64,000 nt of DNA from a virus. The position numbers were made by a program, and so were the translations under genes. Location of the stretch: IMG/VR virus record IMGVR_UViG_3300029448_008119, positions 1,539 to 65,538 of that record. The stretch is one strand, 5' to 3'. The notes beneath the pieces are model-generated. The model searched no databases. It was given only the letters and a program-made list of their open reading frames with translations, and was not told the origin of the DNA. This document shows positions 7,173 to 56,880 of this stretch, piece after piece. Numbering within the stretch: the first letter of the stretch is position 1; each line of letters starts with the position of its first letter.

Positions 7173-7181
7173 TTTAAAGTC

Positions 7182-7253
7182 TAGCTCCACCAGGAATCGA
7201 ACCTGGAACGCAAGATTAGAAATCATGTGTTATATCCGTTTAACTATAGAGCC
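7182..7253 (-). tRNA. tRNA-Arg (anticodon UCU)
   Basis: On the minus strand: acceptor GGCTCTA pairing with TGGAGCT (including G-U pairs), D-arm GTTA/TAAC, anticodon arm CATGA-TTTCTAA-TCTTG with anticodon TCT, and T-arm CCAGG-TTCGATT-CCTGG. The discriminator base is A and CCA is not encoded. One U-U mismatch occurs in the anticodon stem. It would read AGA/AGG, frequent in this AT-rich phage. The 5' end overlaps the stop codon of the HNH gene. Confidence 0.88.
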
Positions 7254-7831
7254 AAATTGCCATTTACTAGCTTAATAAAGTTAACAAATTCTTCGTGGGT
7301 CATATCTCCTTTTGCTTGATTAGCTTCTTTGGAAATAATTTGTAAATTTTCTAAAGTATTTTCTCCTCCCCTAGAGCGTGGAGTGATGTGATCATATTGA
7401 TATTCCTCTGGGCGAGTCCAGCATAAAGTCTTTCCAGTATATCTGCAAGTAAAAATGGTATTAGATTCTTTTATACCGTATTTTGCTTTAACATACTTTA
7501 TTTTAGTCTTTTGTTCCATTGTATCAGATTTGTGGTGTTTCGAGAAATTTTTTAATCTATTCCTATTAGTGGCATGAGCTTCCTTAAAAGTCAAGTCTTT
7601 TATTTTAACTTTTTGTTTGTTTTCTGTTTTGGAGCAAAAAAATCGAGATATGTTCCTGCAGTTCTTTACTTCATAGTTTGGAATCTTTTTTTTCCTTTCT
7701 TGAGCTTTCTTCAGTTGCTTGTCTGGATCTAAATGCCAGCATACGGTAGATCTAGCGCAACCTATTTCTCTAGATATCTCACCTTGATTTAAACCTTTGG
7801 AACTTAGTTCTAATATTTTTTCCTTAAGCAT
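7244..7831 (-). CDS. HNH endonuclease with N-terminal helix-turn-helix (195 aa)
   Basis: The start at ATG 7831 (MLKEKILELSSKGLNQGEIS) is set by a promoter 7 bp upstream. Residues 1-30 read as a helix-turn-helix (QGEISREIGCARSTVCWHL). The C-terminal nuclease part has CRYTGKTLCW, then YDHITPRSRGG, then ENLQIISKEANQAKGD, the HNH pattern with D-H, N and a second catalytic-type region. This is the layout of free-standing homing-type HNH enzymes. Its stop codon TAG lies in the acceptor stem of the downstream tRNA-Arg. Confidence 0.85.
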   Translation of the reverse strand: MLKEKILELSSKGLNQGEISREIGCARSTVCWHLDPDKQLKKAQERKKKIPNYEVKNCRNISRFFCSKTENKQKVKIKDLTFKEAHATNRNRLKNFSKHHKSDTMEQKTKIKYVKAKYGIKESNTIFTCRYTGKTLCWTRPEEYQYDHITPRSRGGENTLENLQIISKEANQAKGDMTHEEFVNFIKLVNGNLAL

Positions 7832-30352: not shown

Positions 30353-33300
30353 ATGGCGGTAAAACTAGGAGTTGATTTTAATCCAAATACAAAAAAGGTT
30401 GAGGCGGCTTTAGCTAGGATACAAGCCCAAGCTAAGGGCGTTCAATTTGGTGGGGGCGCAAGATCAATTGAGAAACTATCGCGTCCTTTAGGAAAAATTA
30501 CTGGACAGGCCTCTGAGTTCCAAAAATCACTAGAAGCTTCTAATGCTCGTGTTTTGGCTTTCGGTGCTTCTGTAGCTGTCATTAATAAACTTTCTCAAGC
30601 TTTTGGAGCGTTAGTTGCTAATACTGTTAAAGTCGAAGCATCTTTTGCTAAAATTAACACTATTCTTGGTGGAACCCAAAGACAATTAGAACAGTTTGGA
30701 AATGGAATTTTTAAAGTTGCACAAAATACTGCTACATCTTTTGATCAAGTAGCCGAAGGAGCTTTAGAATTAGCTCGTCAAGGTTTATCTGTTGAAGAAT
30801 CATTATCTAGGGTCGAGACCGCATTAAAGTTGGTTCGTGTAGCTGGAATTGATTCTCAGCAAGCCGTTGCTGGTTTAACTGCCGCTATAAAAGGTTTTGA
30901 GGGAGCTGGATTAAACGTTGCCCAAATAGCAGATAAGTTGGCAGAGGTTGACACAAAGTTTGCTGTTTCTACAGAAGATTTAATTAATGGACTTGAACGA
31001 GCATCTGCATCAGCTCGTGTTGCTGGGGTAGATTTTGATGAGCTTTTAGGCGTCATAACAACAGTTCAAGAAAGAACGCAACGTGGTGGTGCTGTTATTG
31101 GTAATGCATTTAAAACTATTTTTGCTAGATTGGGTAGAACAGATACATTAGTTGCTTTAGAGCAGTTAGGTATACAAGTTTTAGATTCACAAGGTAATGT
31201 AAGAAGTGCCATACCTCTTTTCCAAGAACTAGCGGTAGAGCTTGATAGGCTTGGTTTGAAAAGCCTTGAAGCTGGAGACATTATTCAAAAAGTTGCTGGA
31301 GTCAGGCAACGTGATATTTTAATTAGTTTGGTAGAAGATTTAAATTCAGGACAAAGCCAATTTGCAAAAGCTTTAGAAGTTTCTGCTGGAGCTGCTGGGT
31401 CTTTGGATAGAAAAAATGCTCAATTAAATGATACATTAGAGGCCTTGATAAATAATTTAACTGTAGGCGCTCAAAAACTTTCAGCTGTACTCGGAGAATT
31501 AGGATTTGCTGATGCAGCTAAAGATATTTTAAAAGTATTCTCTGCGGCGGTAAATGGACTGAGTGATTTATTGCAAGGAGATTCAATCGGCGCCAAATTT
31601 GCACAAGGGCTTGTAAAAGGCATTGGAAGCATTTTAACTGGTCCTGGGCTTGCGTTAATAAGTGCTATATTTGTAAAGTTATTTGTTGATTTAGCTAAAT
31701 TTGGATCTACCTCTCTTAAAAGTTTATTGGGTATAAATAAAGCAGCGGAACAACAAAATTTACTCCAAAAGTCTGTTTTTCAAACACTTCTGCAAAACGA
31801 AGCAATTCAAAGAGAAATTTTAGCTCTTGAGGGTAATAAGGTAGCGCAAGAACAATTACTTTTAAAAATATATAATCAACAAGCTGCTGCTTTAGCTAGG
31901 GTACAAAAGGCTGCCGCGACCGTAAGTCCTGGTCTTTTTAGAGGAGGATTTAGAGGCGGTGAAGGCGGCGTAGGGAGAACTAGAAGAGGAGCTAGTGGTT
32001 ATGTTGCCGCTGAAGCTCGTGATGTATCTAGAGGAGTTGGTGGAGCGCCCGCAAGTTCTAAAGTAGTATCAATTCCAAACTTTGCTTTTGGCGGCGGCAA
32101 GCGCGGGACAATGGTTGCTAATACTAGTGAGTATTTTGTTCCTAATTATGCTGGCGGTGGAGATGCAATATTTAATCGTGACATGATCCGATCTAGCGGT
32201 CTTCCGTCTGGCGCTAGAAAAATAAATGCGGCTGATGGATATATACCAAATTTTGTTAGAAGTAGGGTTGGAGCTGGTCTTGCTGTAAATAATAGATTTA
32301 GAACCAACAATCTTTCTGAGCTTAAGAGGATGGATCCATCAAAATTAAAAGGCAAGGACCGAAAGGACTATGATGCTGCACTAGCTTCCAAGCAAAAGGC
32401 TAAAGTAAAACCATTAAACCTAAGTGCTGCTGGATTTTCTTATCTAGTTCCCCAGCTTAATTTTTCACAAACAGGAGGGCCGCCCAAAAGAGGAAGTTTT
32501 AAAAAAGGAAAAAGAAGTTTTCCATTTTCTCTTTCTGGCTTCTCGGCGTTTGGCCCAAAAATACCAGGAGGGGTTGATGCTGCTGGAGATCCTCAAGATG
32601 AATTTCTTGAAGAAAATATAACCAATGCTTTAGTAAAAGAATCTCAAAAATATGCAAACATATTAACCAGAGCTGTTGGCGGTAGAACGGTAAGTGGGGG
32701 AAATTTAAGGACTAAATTTTCTTCTGGCGGTACAAAAGGTGCATTTGGCGCGTTAAGATCTTCCGTAGGTTCGGCCTTTGAAATAGCTACCTCAGAAGCG
32801 TTGGGAATAGATGATGCCGCTGTTAAAAAGGGTGGGGGAGATTTTGATATAAGAAATCCTAGCCCAGAAGCTAAGCAAAAATTACGAAAACTTTTTGGAT
32901 CAGCAGGTGGTGCGAATCAAGGAGAATTTAAAGTAAGCACTTCCATAGATAACATTGCTAGTTTTGCTAAAAAAATAGCTACAGAAAAGAAAATGGCTTC
33001 GGGTGGTTATATTCCAAATTTTGCTATGTCCCCTATTGACGATGCTGTTCAAAGAGAAAAAGATGCTGGCGTACCAATTAATCAAATTAGAATTAATCAA
33101 AGCGGCAAACTTCGTAATGCTGGAAATCCAGATGGATTAGCTGTGACAAATACAAGAGATGAGCCGACTGGAAGAATTCCAAACTTTGCAGAAGTACCCA
33201 GAGGAAGCAGAGATACTTTGGCGACAGCAGCATCACAAAGTAAAGCTGCCGCTGCGGCTAACAAGGCCGCCGCATCATCCGAAAAGCTTGGCAAAAGTTT

Positions 33301-36184
33301 AGATGTGTCTATCGGCAAGTTTTTTATTTTACAATCGGCTCTAGGGGGATTAACTAGCATGCTTGGCAGCACACAAGAAAACGCAAGTGGTTTACAAAAA
33401 ACTTTTACAGCTTTGGGTTCAGCCGCGATGGCTGCAGTAAATGCAATGTTTGTTATGTCAATGGTTGGAGTTAATCCAATTGGAGCCTCAAAGATACCGA
33501 CAGGAGCCTTAAAGGGTGTTGCTGGAGCTTTAAAATCTATGGGTAAATTTGGTAAATTTATAAAACCATTAGTAAAACTTTTTGGTGGTCTTGCTAGGTT
33601 TGCTGGGCCAGTGGGGCTTGGACTTGTTGCGCTAAATACTGCGTTAAAAGTATTTACTGGAAAAGGTATTTTAGGACAATTCGGTATTGGAGTTAAAAAC
33701 GCTACAGACAGATTAAAAGATTTTGAAAAAGAGCTAGAAAATAAAAATACAGAGCAAAGAGTTGAAGCAAATGAAAAAGCGCAAAGTCGTGTTAGTAATC
33801 TGGAAGGGCAAAAGGCATTTTTTGAAAGGACAATTAAAGAAGACGGTCTCGGGCTTGGCGCGGCACGACGAGGGGAAGAAAGTAGTGACGTCACGCTTGC
33901 GAGAAGAGAACTAGCAAAAATAAATTCACCAGATGGTCGGCAGTCATTGTCTGTGGCACGCGCGGAGGCAAGGGTAACTCAAGCAGCAGTTGATGAAAGC
34001 GCTGCAGGCATAGCGTCGGGCGACTCTGGTTCTTTTTCAACTGGAAGATTTGCGTCAGACTTTTTAAGAAATTTTGGGCCGCTTGATAAAGGCAGGCAGG
34101 TGACGTCAGGCGTAGGAACTTCACCTTTCATTGGGCCTCAACAAAAAATTGATTTCTCAGACCCTGCTTCAATCGTAGCACCTAAAGTTGGAACACAGGG
34201 GACTGTAGGAAATAGAAAAAAACTACTACAAGAAGAACTTAAACTTGCAAAAGACCAAGGCACTGTAGATAAATTTAACATAGAATCAAGAATAGCTGGA
34301 TTAAAATTCGAAATAGAAGCGAATAAGCAAAGATTTCAAATTACTGACGAGTTTACAAAAAATTTAGAAAAGGGCGGAGCTATCTCCCAAAAATCTCTTA
34401 AGATTATACAAGAACAAGTTGAGAATGGTGGAGATCTAAAAGATATACAGAATGCGCTTACAAAGGAGGGGGAAAAACTAAGTGATGCAAGTGAGAAAAT
34501 TTTAAAAAAAGATTTACAAAGACTAGCTACTCTGAATTTAAACTTAAGTGCCCAAGAACAGGAAGTGGCCAATGAGCAACTTATAATTAAATTCAAACAA
34601 GAACAATTTACAATTGAACAAAATCTAGCAAAATTACTAGCAAAAAATAAATCAAAAGCAGCAAGTGAAAGTCTGGGTAGAGACGTAAACACAAGAACAT
34701 TATCTCTTCAGGCTAACAAAGGCCCTATCGGTTCAGGAGAAAGTAGGTCTATTAAATTTAAACAAGAGATGATTTCGCTGGATGAAGAATTGGCTGGTTT
34801 AAATCTTGAAAAACAGAACGCTGCAGATGAATTAGCTGCCCTTGAAAAGAAAGGTTTAACAATAGCTGATCAAGATTTTGTAACGGCGCAGAATTTAGTA
34901 AATTCCACTCAAGAAAGGCTTGATAAAATGAAGCCACTAATAGAAGCTGAAAAGGAACTAGCTCAATTTAGATCTCAGCAAAGTGGTTTTAGCTTAGGTT
35001 TAGAAGAATTAGATTCGACAATACTAAGCTTTGAGGATAAGCTTGGCAGAGAAATACCAGGACTATTTGCGGATAATTTAGGTACGGCAATTAAAGACGC
35101 TGTTACTGGAGCTGAAGATATAGGAGACGCTCTTTCGAAAGCTGGAGAAAGTTTCTTAGGCTACATTAGAGATGCGTTTTTACAACAAGCAGCAAACCAG
35201 GCCACTAGCGCTATATTTGGTGGAATGGGAGGCGGTGGAGCTCCAGGCACAGGCGGAGGTTTAGTCGGAGGTTTATTTGGTGGTATTAAGGACGCATTTT
35301 CAGGAGGATCAGGCGGTACCGAAGGAGCAGCTGGTGGCGCAACCGAAGAAAAAAAGGGGGGTATAGGAGGATTTTTCTCTAATCTCTTCGGCGGAGGCAA
35401 AAAAGGCGCAGCTTTAGGAGCTACTCCAGCCTCGCCAATGTATGTTTCAGATGTTTCATTAAGTAAAGGTGGAGCTGGTGGGGCTTTAGAAAGCTTGACT
35501 GGTGAAAAAAAGGGGGAAATGTCTGTAGAGGGAGAAGAAGGAAAAGGATTTTTCTCTGGACTAACAACCAAATTTGGTGATTTATTTAGTGGCTTAAAAG
35601 ATGGTTTTGGTGATATCCTTGGAGGATTTAAACAAGGTATTGGTGGACTGTTTGGCGGTGGAGCAGGTGGTGGTGGTGGAGTCGGCGGCCTATTCAGTAG
35701 TATTATAGGTGGATTTTCAAGTGGATTCGGAGGATTTGGAACGGCACTTGGTGGATTTTTTGGATTCCAAAATGGAGGCAGAGTTGGATTCGCAAATGGC
35801 GGCCCAGTTGGATCAACAGACACGGTACCAGCAATGCTAACACCTGGAGAATTTGTAGTAAAAAGATCTGCGGTAGATAAATACGGAACAGATTTCTTAT
35901 CTAGTTTAAATAAGGGTATATTACCGATGCAAGGATTCCAAAACGGAGGTTCTGTGTCTCCAGTCGCATCGGAAGCTGGCGCTTCTGCAATGGGCGGAAA
36001 CCAGATCAGCAACAATTCAGATTTCACTTTTAATATACAAGAAGGTAAAGTTAATGAAGAGGGTGGACAGTCATCTTCAGAGCAGCAAAAAGATTTTGCT
36101 GCCAGAATAAGATCTGCGGTTACAACAACTATACAAGAAGAATCAAGAACTGGAGGTTCGTTAAATTATTTATATAAAGGATAA
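30353..36184 (+). CDS. Tape measure protein with embedded nuclease-like segment (1943 aa)
   Basis: Residues 1-400 carry a classic tape measure region (AFGASVAVINKLSQAFG ... VITTVQERTQRGGAVIGNAF). Residues 574-946 hold five IPNFA-type motifs (574, 596, 631, 887, 942). Between the third and fourth lies FEIATSEALG (E810), GGGDFDIRN (D830, D832) and GEFKVS (E858, K860), a PD-(D/E)XK-like order. Hydrophobic segments near 1000-1110 and a coiled-coil region about 1130-1570 follow. The Gly-rich C-terminal part has FQNGGRVGFANGGPVG and TVPAMLTPGEFVV, typical of phage tape measures. It sets tail length; the inserted domain could enter the cell with the DNA. Confidence 0.9.
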   Translation: MAVKLGVDFNPNTKKVEAALARIQAQAKGVQFGGGARSIEKLSRPLGKITGQASEFQKSLEASNARVLAFGASVAVINKLSQAFGALVANTVKVEASFAKINTILGGTQRQLEQFGNGIFKVAQNTATSFDQVAEGALELARQGLSVEESLSRVETALKLVRVAGIDSQQAVAGLTAAIKGFEGAGLNVAQIADKLAEVDTKFAVSTEDLINGLERASASARVAGVDFDELLGVITTVQERTQRGGAVIGNAFKTIFARLGRTDTLVALEQLGIQVLDSQGNVRSAIPLFQELAVELDRLGLKSLEAGDIIQKVAGVRQRDILISLVEDLNSGQSQFAKALEVSAGAAGSLDRKNAQLNDTLEALINNLTVGAQKLSAVLGELGFADAAKDILKVFSAAVNGLSDLLQGDSIGAKFAQGLVKGIGSILTGPGLALISAIFVKLFVDLAKFGSTSLKSLLGINKAAEQQNLLQKSVFQTLLQNEAIQREILALEGNKVAQEQLLLKIYNQQAAALARVQKAAATVSPGLFRGGFRGGEGGVGRTRRGASGYVAAEARDVSRGVGGAPASSKVVSIPNFAFGGGKRGTMVANTSEYFVPNYAGGGDAIFNRDMIRSSGLPSGARKINAADGYIPNFVRSRVGAGLAVNNRFRTNNLSELKRMDPSKLKGKDRKDYDAALASKQKAKVKPLNLSAAGFSYLVPQLNFSQTGGPPKRGSFKKGKRSFPFSLSGFSAFGPKIPGGVDAAGDPQDEFLEENITNALVKESQKYANILTRAVGGRTVSGGNLRTKFSSGGTKGAFGALRSSVGSAFEIATSEALGIDDAAVKKGGGDFDIRNPSPEAKQKLRKLFGSAGGANQGEFKVSTSIDNIASFAKKIATEKKMASGGYIPNFAMSPIDDAVQREKDAGVPINQIRINQSGKLRNAGNPDGLAVTNTRDEPTGRIPNFAEVPRGSRDTLATAASQSKAAAAANKAAASSEKLGKSLDVSIGKFFILQSALGGLTSMLGSTQENASGLQKTFTALGSAAMAAVNAMFVMSMVGVNPIGASKIPTGALKGVAGALKSMGKFGKFIKPLVKLFGGLARFAGPVGLGLVALNTALKVFTGKGILGQFGIGVKNATDRLKDFEKELENKNTEQRVEANEKAQSRVSNLEGQKAFFERTIKEDGLGLGAARRGEESSDVTLARRELAKINSPDGRQSLSVARAEARVTQAAVDESAAGIASGDSGSFSTGRFASDFLRNFGPLDKGRQVTSGVGTSPFIGPQQKIDFSDPASIVAPKVGTQGTVGNRKKLLQEELKLAKDQGTVDKFNIESRIAGLKFEIEANKQRFQITDEFTKNLEKGGAISQKSLKIIQEQVENGGDLKDIQNALTKEGEKLSDASEKILKKDLQRLATLNLNLSAQEQEVANEQLIIKFKQEQFTIEQNLAKLLAKNKSKAASESLGRDVNTRTLSLQANKGPIGSGESRSIKFKQEMISLDEELAGLNLEKQNAADELAALEKKGLTIADQDFVTAQNLVNSTQERLDKMKPLIEAEKELAQFRSQQSGFSLGLEELDSTILSFEDKLGREIPGLFADNLGTAIKDAVTGAEDIGDALSKAGESFLGYIRDAFLQQAANQATSAIFGGMGGGGAPGTGGGLVGGLFGGIKDAFSGGSGGTEGAAGGATEEKKGGIGGFFSNLFGGGKKGAALGATPASPMYVSDVSLSKGGAGGALESLTGEKKGEMSVEGEEGKGFFSGLTTKFGDLFSGLKDGFGDILGGFKQGIGGLFGGGAGGGGGVGGLFSSIIGGFSSGFGGFGTALGGFFGFQNGGRVGFANGGPVGSTDTVPAMLTPGEFVVKRSAVDKYGTDFLSSLNKGILPMQGFQNGGSVSPVASEAGASAMGGNQISNNSDFTFNIQEGKVNEEGGQSSSEQQKDFAARIRSAVTTTIQEESRTGGSLNYLYKG

Positions 36185-39776: not shown

Positions 39777-42700
39777 ATGGCAAACCTTGAAGGAAAAAGA
39801 ATAGATTCAACATATGTTTATGTGTTGAATTCAGATCCAAATACGGCTATAGTAACAAATGGTGACGGAAGTGCTGTGAATTGGCACAAAAATTTAATAG
39901 TGTTACAAACTGGAAATCAAACCATTTCTGGTGTCAAAAACTTTGAATCTATACCTAAATATCAAGGATTAGATATTGTATATAAAAATAATCCACTTTC
40001 TGGACTTGGCGAGGGCGTTTTGCACCAGGCTCAAAATTCTAACGGGTCTATTATATTAGCTGGTAATATTAATAATCTAAGTGGAAACTATTCTGTAATT
40101 TTAGCAGGAGAAGGACACGGATTGACTGGGGACAGGTCTGCGATTTTAGTTGGAGTAAATAACTTATTGACGGGAGATAGGTCTTTAATTGGAGCTGGAT
40201 CTGGCAATTATGTAAGTGGAGATAATTCATCAATAGCAGGTGGAAAAGAAAACTCCGTGCAAGGCTCTGATTCTTTTATAGCTGCTGGATTTGATAATAA
40301 AATATTTTCTAATAAATCTATAATTGGGGCTGGAGATGAAAACAGGTGTCATTCTTTGGCAGGAGGAATTTTAGCAGGTCTAAATAATACAGTTAGTGGA
40401 CAGAGGTCCGTCATAGGTGGTGGGTTTCAAAATGAAGCCGTGGGAGACATTTCTGCTATATTAGGAGGAAGAGATAATCAAGTTCAAGAACACACTTATT
40501 CTAGTAACGTATTGGGTGGCAGATCAAATAAGGTAACTTCTGGAGACTATTCTTCTATAGCGGGTGGTCATCAAAATATTGTAAGTGGGTCTTTTTCTGC
40601 TATAGTTGGTGGAATCTTAAACAGTGTTGAAAATTCAGACAATTCTATAATTGGTGTAGGTACTGGCAATCTAATAAAAGACTCAACTGGTGCAGCTTTA
40701 TTTGGGGGTAACTCAAATATGGTTAGCGGCAATAGAAGTGTCCTTATTGGCGGCGGTGGAAATAAAGTTTTTGGGGACGAAATAGTCCTAATGGGTGGCA
40801 AAACAAATACTGCAAGCGGCGAATTTGCAACGCTTTTTGCTGGTGAAAATAACAATGTAACAGGTATAGCATCAACAATCGTAGCTGGTAGAGAAAATAA
40901 TATTCAAAACTCTAACGATAGTTCAATCATTGCTGGAAGTGGCCAGTTGATTGCTGGCGCTTTAAGATCTTCAATTCATGGGGGGAGGGATAATACAAAT
41001 ACAAATTCTCATGATTCTTCTATAACTGCAGGAACTGGCAATACTTTAACAAGCAATACAAATTCGTTAATTGGCGCTGGAAGATCTAATACATTACAAA
41101 GCTCTCATGATTCAACCATTAACGCTGGAACTGGAAATACTATAGCATCATCTCAAAAATCTTTTATTGCAGCTGGACATACCAACGATATATTAAACTC
41201 TCTTCATTCTTCAATTAATGCTGGACATACAAATAAAATTACAGGATCTAATTACTCTTTTGTTTCAGCTGCAATTTCAGGTCAAATTTTACAATCAACT
41301 GGCTCTGCAATTATTGCTGGGCTAGATAATAAAATTACAGGATCTATAGATTCTTTTATTGGAGGAGGAAATAGAAATTTAATAAGTAAGTCAGATAACT
41401 CTCTAGTTGGAACATCAGACGATTCTGTGATAGATATAAATACAGATGTAATTTTTACTTTTACTGGTTTTTCTAACGAAACCCTTGGGCACAAAAAAAT
41501 AGTAGAACGAGGATTTGCATCAGACTTTACCAAATTTCCGTTTGCAGATATTAGTTCAGCTTCGTCGTTTTCGAACTTTTCTGACGATGATTATACTTAT
41601 TCTGATCAAGCTGGTTTTGAAAGAGTTTCGGGTTTGTGGCTTCAGGAAAAACGTTTTGACGAACCTGTATACGCGTCTATTTTAAATGGAAAAGAAAATA
41701 AAATCGAATCTGATTTTTCTACTATTTTAAATGGCTCTGGAAATGAATTGGCTGGAGCAAACTCAGTAATATTTGGCATAAACAATAAAGCTTCTGGTCA
41801 TAATTCATACATTCTTGGAGGGACTGGTAATAAAATCAATTTAGGGTTTTTGCCAACTGGTTTAGTAGAAAATTTTAGTTTTGGGTTTGGTTTAACAAGA
41901 AATTATGAAAATTACAATACAATAATTGCTGGAGAAAATAATGAAATAGGCGCCAATGAGATTGGAGAAGTATTTGCAACTTTTGCTGGGGGATTTTTTG
42001 AGGGTGTACAAAATAGACATGTTCATATATTCGGAGGAGAGAAAAACTCTGCAAACGGAATAAGTAATTTTATATTAAACGGCAAAAGAAACACTATACA
42101 TGCAACGACTTTTTCTCCGCGTGCAGAATTTAACATTTCAGAATTTACAGCAGGTGACCAAGAGATTACTCAGTTTCATATACCAGAGCTAAGCGGGGTA
42201 TTTGCAACTGATTTTATCCGCCATCAAAGTACGAAGAGACAAACCTACGAGGGTCACTCTTTTATTTCTTCTTCGGTTGGATGTACTACGCACGGAACAT
42301 TTTTGTCAATAAATAATTCTATAAATTCAGATATAGAAAGTGGGCAAAAATTTAATAATAATTCAGTTTCTTCTACTCAGGATGCTTATCCATTCTTTTG
42401 TAATGTGAACGGTAGTCTTGGCTCTTTAATTAAAGGGTCTCATTATGCTTCAATCTTTAATGGTATCGGAAATGAAATTTTGGAGGCTGATAATAGCTTT
42501 AGAATCAGTAATATCAACTCAACCATTTTAAATGGAAACAGAAATAAGATTGTTGGCAATGGCCCAGAGTTTGACGCGGTAGACTCGACGATTAATAATA
42601 CATACTGTACGATTTTAAATGGGCTGAGAAACGAACTTTATAACAAAAAATCTACAATTATAAATGGCTTAGATAACATATCGTCTGGTAGGTCAACTTT

Positions 42701-43916
42701 AATTTTTGGTGACGACAATATTATTTCCGCTAGTGAGTTTGTTGATTCTCCAGCTGTGTCTTTTATATTTGGAAAAGCAAATACTATGAGTGGGGCAGCA
42801 TTCACTACACAGCAGACAAGGCAAGACGGTAATTATATATTTGGAAGAAAGAATGAACTTAAAAACTGCTCTAGTGTGTTTGCTATTGGTGGTCATAAAT
42901 TTACTGATGCTGGAAATACAATTTTGGTTGACAATAAGTTTATTCTGTGTCGTGATGTTTTTTCTTTTAATAACGAGGTATCTGAAATTGCTGATTGCAA
43001 TGACTCAAATATGGGTAATATAGTGTCTTCATATATAAGTGGAGTGTCTAATTCGTCACTGCAAAATATACGCAATGTTACCACCTCACAGATTTTCGAT
43101 GGACGATTAAATGTTGTAGATAGATCCACTATCCAAGCAAATATTTGTGATTTCTGTAACGTTTCTGATACAACTATATCTGGAGTTAACACGTCTGCTC
43201 TTTTTAATGTTACTCACAGTGATATAACTGGCATGTCACATTCGCGTGTTCAAGGTTCCTATAATAAAATAGGCAACCTAAGCAATAATAACTGCGTCGA
43301 CGATACGCAGATATTTGGAAATCATATTAATATAACTGGAAGAGTAGGTCTTGACGGGTCAAACATACATGGCGACAATATTGATTTTAAAGTTAAGAAT
43401 GAAGGAAATTTCTGCGACTATTCAAATATCGACATTCTTGGTAGCAACCACTCAATGTTTGGAAATCAAGGTGATATGTTTCAAATAACGATTAGGGGAG
43501 GCAGTAATAATATTACAACATCAAGTCGTCTTTTTCTGCACGGTTCACAAATTGATGTAGAAGACTCGAATGACTCTTTTTTCTTTGGAAAAAATATAGA
43601 CTCAACTGGGGATAGTACTTTTATTTTCGGCGAAAAGATAAAATCTGAATTTAAGGGAGGATCTGTAATAAGAGACAGTAATCCAGAAGGCTCATTCCTT
43701 GAATCTAAGGGGCAAGATACTCTTTTACTTAGCTTTGCAAAAGGAACTTATTTAAATATGCCATCGGGCAATTCAAGCAATACCACCCCAAATGATGGAG
43801 TCCCAGGATCTCTCTTGTATAGTGGAGAGTTTTTACTGGTAAAAACTGGACTTGGCTCAGCGACTAATAGTAATCCGCATGGATGGGGCAAAATACAAAT
43901 ATCGTCCCTGGATTAA
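39777..43916 (+). CDS. Giant tail adhesin with YadA-like head repeats (1379 aa)
   Basis: Residues about 90-560 consist of some 25-30 repeats of 15-18 residues with the consensus S-x-I-x-x-G-x-x-N-x-V-x-G, such as SVILAGEGHGLTGDRSAIL and NTVSGQRSVIGGGFQNEAVG. This matches the head repeats of trimeric autotransporter adhesins (YadA/Hia), which form a left-handed beta-roll. Degenerate repeats (SxILNGxxN) recur later. The N-terminal about 75 residues probably attach it to the tail. Likely receptor-binding side or tip fibre. The end overlaps a convergent gene by 4 bp. Confidence 0.75.
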   Translation: MANLEGKRIDSTYVYVLNSDPNTAIVTNGDGSAVNWHKNLIVLQTGNQTISGVKNFESIPKYQGLDIVYKNNPLSGLGEGVLHQAQNSNGSIILAGNINNLSGNYSVILAGEGHGLTGDRSAILVGVNNLLTGDRSLIGAGSGNYVSGDNSSIAGGKENSVQGSDSFIAAGFDNKIFSNKSIIGAGDENRCHSLAGGILAGLNNTVSGQRSVIGGGFQNEAVGDISAILGGRDNQVQEHTYSSNVLGGRSNKVTSGDYSSIAGGHQNIVSGSFSAIVGGILNSVENSDNSIIGVGTGNLIKDSTGAALFGGNSNMVSGNRSVLIGGGGNKVFGDEIVLMGGKTNTASGEFATLFAGENNNVTGIASTIVAGRENNIQNSNDSSIIAGSGQLIAGALRSSIHGGRDNTNTNSHDSSITAGTGNTLTSNTNSLIGAGRSNTLQSSHDSTINAGTGNTIASSQKSFIAAGHTNDILNSLHSSINAGHTNKITGSNYSFVSAAISGQILQSTGSAIIAGLDNKITGSIDSFIGGGNRNLISKSDNSLVGTSDDSVIDINTDVIFTFTGFSNETLGHKKIVERGFASDFTKFPFADISSASSFSNFSDDDYTYSDQAGFERVSGLWLQEKRFDEPVYASILNGKENKIESDFSTILNGSGNELAGANSVIFGINNKASGHNSYILGGTGNKINLGFLPTGLVENFSFGFGLTRNYENYNTIIAGENNEIGANEIGEVFATFAGGFFEGVQNRHVHIFGGEKNSANGISNFILNGKRNTIHATTFSPRAEFNISEFTAGDQEITQFHIPELSGVFATDFIRHQSTKRQTYEGHSFISSSVGCTTHGTFLSINNSINSDIESGQKFNNNSVSSTQDAYPFFCNVNGSLGSLIKGSHYASIFNGIGNEILEADNSFRISNINSTILNGNRNKIVGNGPEFDAVDSTINNTYCTILNGLRNELYNKKSTIINGLDNISSGRSTLIFGDDNIISASEFVDSPAVSFIFGKANTMSGAAFTTQQTRQDGNYIFGRKNELKNCSSVFAIGGHKFTDAGNTILVDNKFILCRDVFSFNNEVSEIADCNDSNMGNIVSSYISGVSNSSLQNIRNVTTSQIFDGRLNVVDRSTIQANICDFCNVSDTTISGVNTSALFNVTHSDITGMSHSRVQGSYNKIGNLSNNNCVDDTQIFGNHINITGRVGLDGSNIHGDNIDFKVKNEGNFCDYSNIDILGSNHSMFGNQGDMFQITIRGGSNNITTSSRLFLHGSQIDVEDSNDSFFFGKNIDSTGDSTFIFGEKIKSEFKGGSVIRDSNPEGSFLESKGQDTLLLSFAKGTYLNMPSGNSSNTTPNDGVPGSLLYSGEFLLVKTGLGSATNSNPHGWGKIQISSLD

Positions 43917-49229: not shown

Positions 49230-50879
49230 ATGAACAAAGATTATTACTGGCTAAATAAGGATTCAAGAACTTTCCTTAAAAGGGGTTATCTAGAAGATGG
49301 CGAAACTCCAGAAGAAAGAATAGCCACCGTAGCTGACGCTGCTCAAAAAATTCTAGCCATACCTGGATTCTCTGAAAAGTTTCAAAGCTATATGGCAAAA
49401 GGATGGTACTCCCTGTCATCACCCATTTGGGCTAACTTTGGAAAAGAAAGAGGATTGCCGATTTCTTGCTTTGGTTCTTACATAGAGGACACAATGGAAG
49501 CCATCCTAAAGAAAAGCTCAGAGGTTGGCATGATGACGAAAGGCGGAGGAGGAACCTCTGGATATTTTGGAGAACTCAGAGAAAGAGGTGCCGAAATAAG
49601 CAGCGGAGGCAAATCAAATGGGCCAGTTCATTTTTTAGAAATTTTCGAAACGATAGCAAACGTAGTTTCACAATCCAATGTTCGCAGGGGTAGCTTTGCC
49701 GCTTACTTGCCAGTAGAGCACTCAGACATTTTGGAATTCCTACAAATCAGAGGAGATGGTAACGCCATACAGAATCTATCAATAGGTGTCACAATTACGG
49801 ACACCTGGATGAAAGAGATGCTTGCTGGGGACAAAGACAAGCGTAAGGTATGGGGAGCTATCATCAAAAAAAGATTTGAAAGCGGATACCCTTATGTTAT
49901 GTTTAAAAACGCTGTTAACAGAAATTCTCCCCAAGTCTATAGAGACAAGGGGATGGATATTCATGCAAGTAATCTGTGCTCAGAAATAGCACTTCATTCA
50001 AACAAAGATGAATCGTTTGTATGCAATCTTTCTTCCATGAACTTACTTCATTACGAAGAATGGAAAGATACGGACGCAGTCGAAACTCTCACTTACTTCT
50101 TAGATGCGGTAATGACCGAGTTCATCGACAAATGTAAAGGTAAGCCATTCATGGAAGCTCCAATGAATTTTGCGAAGAATCAAAGAGCGCTTGGTATAGG
50201 TGTGCTAGGCTGGCACTCCCTCTTACAATCAAGGATGATTTCATTTGAGTCAATGAAGGCTAAGTTTTTGAATACAGAAATTCATAAAGTAATACAAGAA
50301 AAATCTCAATATGCCACGGAACAGCTGGCAGAGGTTTATGGAGAGCCCCCCTTGCTAAAAGGATATGGCAAGAGAAATGTTACCACAATGGCGATTGCAC
50401 CTACAACCTCTAGCTCATTTATTCTTGGGCAAGTATCTCCGAGCATTGAGCCGTTAAATAGTAATTATTTTGTAAAAGATCTAGCCAAGGGTAAATTTAC
50501 ATATAAGAATCCATACCTAGAATCATTGCTTGAAGAAAAAGAAAAAAATACACCAGAGATATGGAAAGATATTCTAGTTAAAGGCGGTTCGGTTCAGCAT
50601 TTAAAGTTCTTTTCAGATGATGAAAAAGCCGTTTTTAAGACATTTGGTGAAATAAGTCAAAAAGAAGTCTTGATTCAAGCTGCTCAACGTCAAAAGTTTA
50701 TTGACCAATCTCAAAGTTTAAATATCATGGTTCATCCTAAATCTTCTCCAAAAGATGTCAGCCAACTAATGATTTTTGCTTGGGAACAGGGAGTCAAAAG
50801 CCTATACTATCAAAGAGGGACTAACCCATCACAAGAATTGAGTAGAAATTTATTAGAATGTCAATCTTGCTCTGGTTAA
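49230..50879 (+). CDS. nrdA: Ribonucleotide reductase class I, alpha subunit, short form
   Basis: 549 residues, without the N-terminal ATP-cone. Catalytic Cys in PISCFGS, the N-x-C-x-E motif in ASNLCSEIAL, partner Cys in FVCNLSSMNL, and a C-terminal redox pair CQSCSG. Lacking the ATP-cone suggests loss of dATP feedback inhibition, useful during phage replication. Start 2 bp after the 68-residue gene. Confidence 0.93.
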   Translation: MNKDYYWLNKDSRTFLKRGYLEDGETPEERIATVADAAQKILAIPGFSEKFQSYMAKGWYSLSSPIWANFGKERGLPISCFGSYIEDTMEAILKKSSEVGMMTKGGGGTSGYFGELRERGAEISSGGKSNGPVHFLEIFETIANVVSQSNVRRGSFAAYLPVEHSDILEFLQIRGDGNAIQNLSIGVTITDTWMKEMLAGDKDKRKVWGAIIKKRFESGYPYVMFKNAVNRNSPQVYRDKGMDIHASNLCSEIALHSNKDESFVCNLSSMNLLHYEEWKDTDAVETLTYFLDAVMTEFIDKCKGKPFMEAPMNFAKNQRALGIGVLGWHSLLQSRMISFESMKAKFLNTEIHKVIQEKSQYATEQLAEVYGEPPLLKGYGKRNVTTMAIAPTTSSSFILGQVSPSIEPLNSNYFVKDLAKGKFTYKNPYLESLLEEKEKNTPEIWKDILVKGGSVQHLKFFSDDEKAVFKTFGEISQKEVLIQAAQRQKFIDQSQSLNIMVHPKSSPKDVSQLMIFAWEQGVKSLYYQRGTNPSQELSRNLLECQSCSG

Positions 50880-54426: not shown

Positions 54427-55341
54427 ATGGAACTAGATTTTTCAGAAGAACTTCAAGCTGGCAGAGCAGGACCTAAAAGTGCCGCTCAAACCCCAGCTAA
54501 ACCAGAAGAAAGAAAGAAGGGCTCTTCTGTAAATGAGCCTGGTTCCGCTGCTGGCGCAATTACCTTTAGTGAAAAAGTCACAACAGCTCTCAAAAACAAA
54601 GTAAAAAAGCACAACGAAAAACACTCCAAAAAGGTAACTTTAGGAATGTTGAAAAAAATATATCGTAGGGGTGCGGGAGCCTTTTCCACTTCACATAGAC
54701 CAGGCCAAACCAGAGGAAGCTGGGCGATGGCTAGAGTAAATATGTTTCTAAAGATGGTTCGCGGCGGTAAGGTAAAGAAATCTTATAGAGCAGCAGATCA
54801 AGATGTAGCAAAAGCTTCAGAAGAAGAACTCCTTAACTTAGCAGACGTATTTAGTGAGTGGAGTCCAGGAGATTTCTCAGAAGCTAGAGATATTTCAAAT
54901 GTACAATTCGCTTTAGCTAGAATTGATTTATTAGGCGCAGGTGCAACTCCAACAGAAATGTTAGAGGGAGATGCATCCCAAGATTTTATATTAGAAGCTA
55001 AAGAAAAAAAAACTTTAAATAAACCATTTAGACTTCCAAGCGGTTCGAAAAAAAAGTTTGGAGTTTATGTTAAAAACGAAAAAGGTAACGTTGTTAAGGT
55101 AACCTTTGGCGATCCAAACATGGAAATTAAAAGAGACGACCCAGAGCGTCGTAAATCATTTAGAGCTAGACATCAATGCGATACAAATCCTGGCCCCAAA
55201 TATAAAGCACGATATTGGTCTTGTAAACAATGGAGAGCTGGTAAAAAAGTAGAAGGGTCTGAAGAACTTGAATCTGATGCCTCACTTCTTCTTATAGATC
55301 CTAAATTAGCTGAAGCTCCAACTATTCAAGAAAAAGAATAG
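54427..55341 (+). CDS. DUF5872/DUF5824-type phage protein (304 aa)
   Basis: MELDFSEELQAGRAG at the start. Residues about 45-120 (KVTLGMLKKIYRRGAGAFST, TRGSWAMARVNMFLKMV) match DUF5872. Residues about 200-270 (KKFGVYVKNEKGNVVKVTFG, DDPERRKSFRARHQCDTN, RYWSCKQW) match DUF5824. Both are frequent in phage head regions and have unknown function. Confidence 0.8.
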   Translation: MELDFSEELQAGRAGPKSAAQTPAKPEERKKGSSVNEPGSAAGAITFSEKVTTALKNKVKKHNEKHSKKVTLGMLKKIYRRGAGAFSTSHRPGQTRGSWAMARVNMFLKMVRGGKVKKSYRAADQDVAKASEEELLNLADVFSEWSPGDFSEARDISNVQFALARIDLLGAGATPTEMLEGDASQDFILEAKEKKTLNKPFRLPSGSKKKFGVYVKNEKGNVVKVTFGDPNMEIKRDDPERRKSFRARHQCDTNPGPKYKARYWSCKQWRAGKKVEGSEELESDASLLLIDPKLAEAPTIQEKE

Positions 55342-55537: not shown

Positions 55538-55795
55538 ATGGAACAATTCTTAGGTTTGGTATATACAATATGCTTTAGTACTTGCATTTGGCCGCAAATA
55601 ATTAAAAGCGTAAAAACAAAAAAAGTAGAAGATGTTAGCATCTCTCTCTTTATTCTTTCTATTGTCGGATACGTGTCCGCTATATCTTACACTATACTAA
55701 GGGTAGGCTTTGATTTTTGGTGGTTGATAAATTATTGTTTGAGCTTATTATCAGCTATAATCATGGTTATACTATGGTTTAGATATAAGAAATGA
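55538..55795 (+). CDS. SemiSWEET-like PQ-loop membrane protein (85 aa)
   Basis: Three TM helices with the PQ-loop motif WPQIIKSVKTK in helix 1 and VGYVSAISYTIL in helix 2. 85 residues is the size of bacterial SemiSWEET sugar transporters. It is 4 bp upstream-overlapped with the DegT gene and so probably belongs to the sugar cassette. Transport of a sugar, or membrane delivery of the modified sugar, is inferred. Confidence 0.75.
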   Translation: MEQFLGLVYTICFSTCIWPQIIKSVKTKKVEDVSISLFILSIVGYVSAISYTILRVGFDFWWLINYCLSLLSAIIMVILWFRYKK

Positions 55796-56880
55796 AAATA
55801 CCAATTTATAAACCCTGGATAACTAAAACAGAAAAAAATATACTGCAAGATGCCATAGACTCAGGGTGGTTTTCTTCTATTGGTAAATATATAAATTTAT
55901 TTGAAGATAAATTTAGTGAATTTATTGAATGCAAATATTCTGTAGCATTGAATAACGGTACCTCTGCTTGTCATTTATCTTTATTGAGTAGTGGTATTAA
56001 AAGCGGAGACGAGGTCATAGTACCAGCATCAACTTTTATTGCTTGTCCAAATTCAGTTAAATATTGCGGCGCAGTACCCGTAATTGCTGATGTAGATAAA
56101 GATACTTGGAACATATCTCTTAATGAAATAAAAAAGAAAAAAACAGAAAAAACAAAAGCTGTTTTTCTGGTTCATATGCTTGGTAACCCCTGTGATCAAG
56201 AAATATATGACTGGTGTGAAGAAAACAATATTCTATGTATAGAAGATGCTTGTGAATCTATAGGAGCCTCTTTGAATGAAAAAAAAACTGGTACCCTAGG
56301 TAGCTGTGGGGCGTTTAGCTTTTTTGGCAATAAAAATCTTACAACAGGAGAGGGCGGAATGTTGACAACTAACGACAAAACAATCTTTCAAAAAGCCAAG
56401 TATTTAAGGGGCCAAGCCCAAGACTCAACATATCGTCACGGAGACATAGGGTACAATTACAGAATGACGAATATACAAGCAGCTTTGGGCTATAGTCAAA
56501 TGTTGAGGATTCAAGAAATTATGTCCGAAAAAGATAGAGTCTTTAATTGTTATAAAAAAAATCTAGAATCTCTTGTTGGTCAGGATTCATTTAAAATTCA
56601 AAAAACTACTGAAAATTCAAAACACGCCAATTGGATGTTTGCTATATATTCCAAGAAAAAAGATAATATTAAAAATGTTTTAAATAAAAATGGAGTAGAC
56701 ACAAGGCCAATGTTCTACCCCGTAAACTCCATGAATCCTTATCTGTCTGAGGAGGTTCATCGCGTAGCTGGTGATTTAAGCTCTAGGGTAATTATGCTTC
56801 CGTCATATCCTGAATTAAAAGATAGCCAGATTGAGAAAATATGCGAATTAGTAAAGGATTCTAATGGAAAAAATATCTAA
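55792..56880 (+). CDS. DegT/DnrJ/EryC1-type sugar aminotransferase
   Basis: 362 residues, PLP-dependent. ALNNGTSACHLSLLSSGI, EVIVPASTFIACPNSVKYCG, CIEDACESIGAS, and the Lys-bearing FFGNKNLTTGEGGML; arginine in YLRGQAQ and FNYRMTN-type YNYRMTNIQAALG. Close in plan to GDP-perosamine synthase. Together with the dehydratase at 58756 it would turn GDP-4-keto-6-deoxymannose into GDP-perosamine. Confidence 0.88.
   Translation: MKIPIYKPWITKTEKNILQDAIDSGWFSSIGKYINLFEDKFSEFIECKYSVALNNGTSACHLSLLSSGIKSGDEVIVPASTFIACPNSVKYCGAVPVIADVDKDTWNISLNEIKKKKTEKTKAVFLVHMLGNPCDQEIYDWCEENNILCIEDACESIGASLNEKKTGTLGSCGAFSFFGNKNLTTGEGGMLTTNDKTIFQKAKYLRGQAQDSTYRHGDIGYNYRMTNIQAALGYSQMLRIQEIMSEKDRVFNCYKKNLESLVGQDSFKIQKTTENSKHANWMFAIYSKKKDNIKNVLNKNGVDTRPMFYPVNSMNPYLSEEVHRVAGDLSSRVIMLPSYPELKDSQIEKICELVKDSNGKNI

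Follow-up and report, generated by a model that had tools for sequence, protein, structure and literature searches.

Interchangeable cassettes framed by IPNFA motifs, often holding a nuclease-like domain, in the tape measure proteins of uncultivated siphophages

The window analysed here is a stretch of 64,000 nucleotides (positions 1,539 to 65,538 of IMGVR_UViG_3300029448_008119), part of a 92,312-base IMG/VR virus record. It encodes a tape measure protein (TMP), recognized both by sequence matches to TMP families and by its place in a tail gene cluster, with a minor tail protein gene directly 3'. Against cultured phages, the match of this protein is confined to its N-terminal core. The features discussed below are as follows (residues of the TMP in brackets):

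30353–36184, plus strand: TMP, 1943 aa, matching PHROG tail length tape measure families (to 6.8e-43) and Pfam PhageMin_Tail (1.3e-27)
30353–31927, plus strand: N-terminal core (1–525), with PHROG TMP profile matches and 84–90% identity to the nearest relatives
31631–31687, plus strand: hydrophobic, membrane-like segment (427–445), Kyte–Doolittle peak 2.03
32033–32257, plus strand: conserved linker, the left border of the cassette (561–635), 88–89% identical in the nearest relatives
32072, 32138 and 32243, plus strand: starts of the linker motifs IPNFA (574), VPNYA (596) and IPNFV (631), read from the sequence
32258–33004, plus strand: exchangeable cassette (636–884), delimited by comparison with L310
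32594–32998, plus strand: nuclease-like domain, hereafter the N domain (748–882), with conserved G806, E810, D832, E858, K860 and K874
33011–33175, plus strand: m55 module of 55 aa, the right border of the cassette (887–941), beginning with the motif IPNFA (887)
33176–33190, plus strand: fifth motif, IPNFA (942), where homology to L310 is lost again
33410–33475, plus strand: hydrophobic segment (1020–1041), Kyte–Doolittle peak 1.69

The C-terminal half of the TMP (33191–36184, residues 947–1943) is also mosaic, with ~26–32% identity in relatives whose N-terminal core is 86% identical. Long open frames lie antisense to the gene (33097–33894, 265 aa; 35161–36027, 288 aa) and are probably by-products of codon use. 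Downstream of the TMP, a 1379-aa protein (39777–43916) matches the ice-binding beta-roll family LbR_Ice_bind (2.4e-8) and is perhaps a tail fibre repeat. The window also carries a ribonucleotide reductase large chain (49230–50879), a DegT/DnrJ/EryC1/StrS aminotransferase (55792–56880) adjoining a DUF5824 protein (54427–55341), and a minus-strand tRNA-Arg gene (7181–7254).

An earlier note, made from the letters of this DNA, had placed five IPNFA-type motifs in the TMP, and the ORF translation has all five at the residues it gave. We scanned IMG/VR with DNA patterns for GYIPNFA, GFIPNFA and GYVPNFA; the resulting counts are lower bounds. At least 274 non-redundant motif-bearing ORFs held at least 1205 motifs (mean 4.4), compared with 10 after shuffling; as these ORFs were gathered by the motif itself, the excess reflects repetition within ORFs, not overall frequency. 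Among the matches listed, the consensus across the 274 ORFs is (A/S)xG(Y/F)(I/V)PN(F/Y)A, and the N-terminal core of the window TMP finds a match in 166 of the 173 motif ORFs that have at least 400 aa before the first motif.

Within the cassette region, conservation is highest in m55, whose profile matches at least 197 of the 274 motif ORFs. Its consensus is IPNFAxPLxDAIxREKxAGxP...NPxGLAVTNTRDEPxG, with R901, E902, G906, N925, P926, G928, V931, N933, D936, E937 and P938 near-invariant. A motif nearly always opens the module, which makes up the cassette's right border. Searches of m55 against Pfam and the PDB gave no match, and a role in docking or cleavage is a guess. A second set of loci, collected with an m55 DNA pattern and hence independent of the GYIPNFA patterns, had the same architecture: a motif stood at the start of m55 in 57 of 70 m55 ORFs, and the N domain was present in 34 of the 53 with at least 330 aa upstream.

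The earlier note had proposed surveying other TMPs for domain exchange between IPNFA motifs. The window TMP is near-identical to that of L310 up to motif 631, diverges abruptly, agrees again from just before motif 887 to 942, and then diverges a second time. We examined the borders of such divergent blocks in 29 TMP pairs from a non-redundant set with N-terminal cores at least 80% identical, using each ORF once and making no further correction for shared ancestry. Among the matches listed, no more than 5 aa separated the left border from the end of a motif in 21 of the 29 pairs (1.6 expected) and the right border from the beginning of one in 24 (2.2 expected). Where the cores were 80–90% identical, median identity was 28% for the cassettes and 83% for m55, again among the matches listed. 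The pair L160/L185 has ~95% DNA identity on both flanks with unrelated cassettes between them; at the protein level, identity is ~97% for the cores, ~30% for the cassettes and 98% for m55. At the level of sequence, these comparisons show that the motifs bound a cassette which phages exchange as a unit, and that the breakpoints fall at the motifs. In 2023, a survey of mosaicism among phage proteins reported that TMPs often seemed mosaic and that no genuine recent case could be confirmed (PMC10684548). Pairs of the L160/L185 type are recent cases of TMP mosaicism with defined borders, of the kind that survey could not confirm.

Clean replacement of alleles between conserved flanks is also what a selfish nuclease would produce, by cutting co-infecting TMP alleles that hold other cassettes and being copied in by recombination at the motif flanks, homing-like but with no intron or intein; homing endonucleases do often interrupt the TMP genes of other phages (PMC10448857). 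Yet homing elements show empty alleles, whereas among the matches listed the slot was empty in only 1 of 130 near-complete TMPs. Non-nuclease modules also occupy slots, and the domain is translated within the TMP; we consider a selfish nuclease very unlikely. An intein or a simple in-frame homing insertion was rejected on the same count of empty slots, and because the IPNFA borders do not have the usual intein C-terminal His-Asn followed by Cys, Ser or Thr.

Between the third and fourth motifs, the earlier note had picked out E810, D830/D832 and E858-x-K860 as following the order of a PD-(D/E)XK active site. FEIATSEALG (at 809), GGGDFDI (at 827) and GEFKVS (at 857) do lie there. Using an iterated profile seeded with the window N domain, we obtained matches in at least 161 of the 274 motif ORFs and aligned 156 distinct sequences. 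Among these 156, as listed, G806 is kept in 155, E810 in 151 (with D in the other 5), D832 in 155, D/E858 and K860 in all 156, and K/Q874 in 155. The note had asked whether the proposed residues might prove unconserved in homologues; across at least 156 copies they are near-invariant, with the exception of D830, which varies, leaving D832 as the conserved acid. The copies are otherwise mostly 15–40% identical overall. Outside the motif ORFs, the domain was seen in one more long ORF only (L311, with copies from residue 663) among the matches listed for 3749 locus ORFs. Relative to its nearest relatives, the window N domain has a dN/dS of 0.18–0.24, indicating purifying selection and thus that it is kept as a protein. 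On this conservation, the E-D-(D/E)xK arrangement in the TMP is not a chance pattern: a helix acidic residue, then D, then (D/E)xK follow one another, in order and conserved, in at least 156 copies, as in PD-(D/E)XK sites.

The predicted fold tells another story. Two confident AlphaFold2 models of the N domain, built from 65 and 122 sequences (pLDDT 86.0 and 87.3; pTM 0.74 and 0.75), are mainly helical, with the order helix (E), very short strands (D), helix, short strand ((D/E)xK) and helix (K/Q). Neither contains the alpha-beta-beta-beta-alpha-beta core of PD-(D/E)XK nucleases or its final strand, and Foldseek searches with both models against the PDB and BFVD returned no match. The residue order claimed for the active site stands, while the core that the earlier note had set as its fold criterion finds no support. 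Nor did the window N domain match any family in Pfam, PHROGs or NCBIfam. A deeper profile search of PDB sequences pointed to hemopexin-type lectins (E ~0.0015); this covered a partial repeat, with an i-Evalue of 0.64 for the best stretch, and was judged to be chance. Because the predicted fold gives no confirmation, we do not file the N domain under the PD-(D/E)XK superfamily. It may be a reduced version of that fold or a convergent site; the order helix(E)-strand-strand(D)-helix-strand(DxK)-helix in the 122-sequence model could represent such a reduced form.

The same results could be read as a non-nuclease domain, metal-binding, enzymatic or structural, that helps to assemble the tail or open the DNA channel, with allele exchange reflecting adaptation to partner proteins. 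The lack of a nuclease fold in the models and the Foldseek searches fits, as does the retention of the domain in most TMPs of this type, which a structural need would predict. On the other hand, the four to five charged residues that stay invariant across at least 156 very divergent copies look catalytic, and TMPs lacking the N domain hold other enzymes, such as SNase (staphylococcal nuclease). We regard a non-nuclease role as rather unlikely.

The other contents of the slot are diverse. Among the matches listed, the N domain precedes m55 in 105 of the 130 near-complete TMPs; 17 of the 25 TMPs without it match the regular expression G..(F/Y/M/L)E..D..(D/E)xK, some of them loosely. Other modules found between motifs include SNase (2.2e-9), GNAT (7.3e-8 in one case), P-loop AAA, HATPase and the head of a PolyA_pol (poly(A)-polymerase; 9.8e-15). 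HAD-like DWDGT, DLHGSNY and HExxH motifs were recognized in modules by eye or pattern only, and most modules between motifs have no family match. One family that also sits between motifs, M6, carries an SAxD..(E)xK signature with the usual PD-(D/E)XK spacing. Using hhalign, we found the N domain to be related to another cargo module, M13 (probability 93%); a relation to the SAxD..ExK family M6 was not demonstrable by the same comparison. Cargo family M10 (L057:523-1101, L200:9306-9875) resembles the N domain, with DxH replacing (D/E)xK. In a related locus, the segment L279:1254-3182 between IPNFA motifs contains GGSVRD and probably gave rise to the PolyA_pol/tRNA nucleotidyltransferase matches.

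Taken as a whole, we see about an even chance that the TMP has a cargo slot for interchangeable enzymes, most often filled by a metal-dependent nuclease that probably enters together with the DNA. The linker with its IPNFA motifs on the left and m55 on the right would frame the cassette in this slot. The motifs may serve as flexible spacers, docking or cleavage sites, allowing any module to sit inside the TMP without disturbing it. The usual occupant, in the window as elsewhere, is a domain whose conserved residues predict a PD-(D/E)XK-type metal-dependent nuclease. Ejected from the tail before the DNA, the TMP would take the cassette across the host envelope; the delivered enzyme would then act at the start of infection on host DNA, competing DNA or a defence system. 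An injected enzyme is plausible by analogy because the TMP is ejected: in lambda, the TMP gets as far as the inner membrane during injection (PMC13190303). The TMP of mycobacteriophage TM4 carries an active peptidoglycan hydrolase, and an enzyme domain inside a TMP can therefore be active (PMC1796659). A co-delivered nuclease would need a means of sparing the phage's own DNA, and none was found.

Among the matches listed for 110 complete TMPs, a hydrophobic segment precedes the slot or first motif in 93, follows the slot or m55 in 50, and lies inside the slot in only 4. This fits, and does not prove, a cassette that forms a soluble loop between membrane segments. A position between hydrophobic segments would also suit a variable region contacting a host protein of the inner membrane or periplasm for DNA entry, its diversity tracking host range. 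Strong cassette divergence between near-identical cores points the same way, and variation at residues 300–400 of siphophage TMPs alters ManYZ dependence (PMC13190303). Receptor-binding regions, though, do not usually retain an invariant E/D/(D/E)xK/K site, and the cargo of other members includes recognizable enzymes; we hold this role in host-protein binding to be improbable.

The distribution of these cassettes lies largely outside cultured phages. A tblastn search of 50,697 cultured-phage records with the window N domain, two divergent copies of it, m55 and three multi-module cassette regions gave no TMP match; the exception was the SNase module of L100, which found two stand-alone SNase-like records. 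The at least 156 N-domain copies come nearly all from motif-bearing TMPs of uncultivated phages. A genome collection yielded seven m55 loci, one on a contig encoding a 2225-aa TMP, in bins assigned to Flavobacteriia/Flavobacteriales (3), Halobacteriovorax (2), Verrucomicrobiales (1) and another bacterium (1), binning of phage contigs being unreliable. We found no published account of IPNFA motifs in this sense, or of the cassettes, in the open-licence literature.

More broadly, we put only a little short of even the proposal that, across a large group of uncultivated siphophages, the TMP serves to deliver interchangeable enzymes set between IPNFA motifs and m55, with a new compact nuclease family as the standard load: a polymorphic tail effector system. 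If the cassettes are delivered, hundreds of phage-carried enzymes entering with the DNA would be predicted from sequence alone, and could be found by reading the segments between IPNFA motifs.

Several known systems resemble the one proposed. With PD-(D/E)XK nucleases, the N domain shares the strictly conserved order E, D, (D/E)xK, K/Q; it differs in the long distance from D to ExK, with a helix between them, and in having neither the canonical core nor a fold match. The TM4 TMP, with its peptidoglycan hydrolase motif 3, likewise has an enzymatic domain within a TMP, but this is a single domain, a wall hydrolase, and an exchangeable slot framed by motifs is not described there (PMC1796659). 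Polyvalent proteins (Iyer et al. 2017, PMC5512222) are likewise multidomain phage proteins with varied enzymes and predicted injection. Their trait of disparate enzymatic domains is seen here across the TMP family, which has several, while the window TMP has one enzyme-like domain. That account does not mention tape measure proteins or the IPN motif, whereas here the carrier is the TMP and the modules are framed by IPNFA motifs and m55. Finally, T4 Alt, an injected ADP-ribosyltransferase (PMC5512222), is an enzyme that passes from the virion into the host together with the DNA, as we propose for the cassette, but it is a separate head protein and not a TMP cassette.
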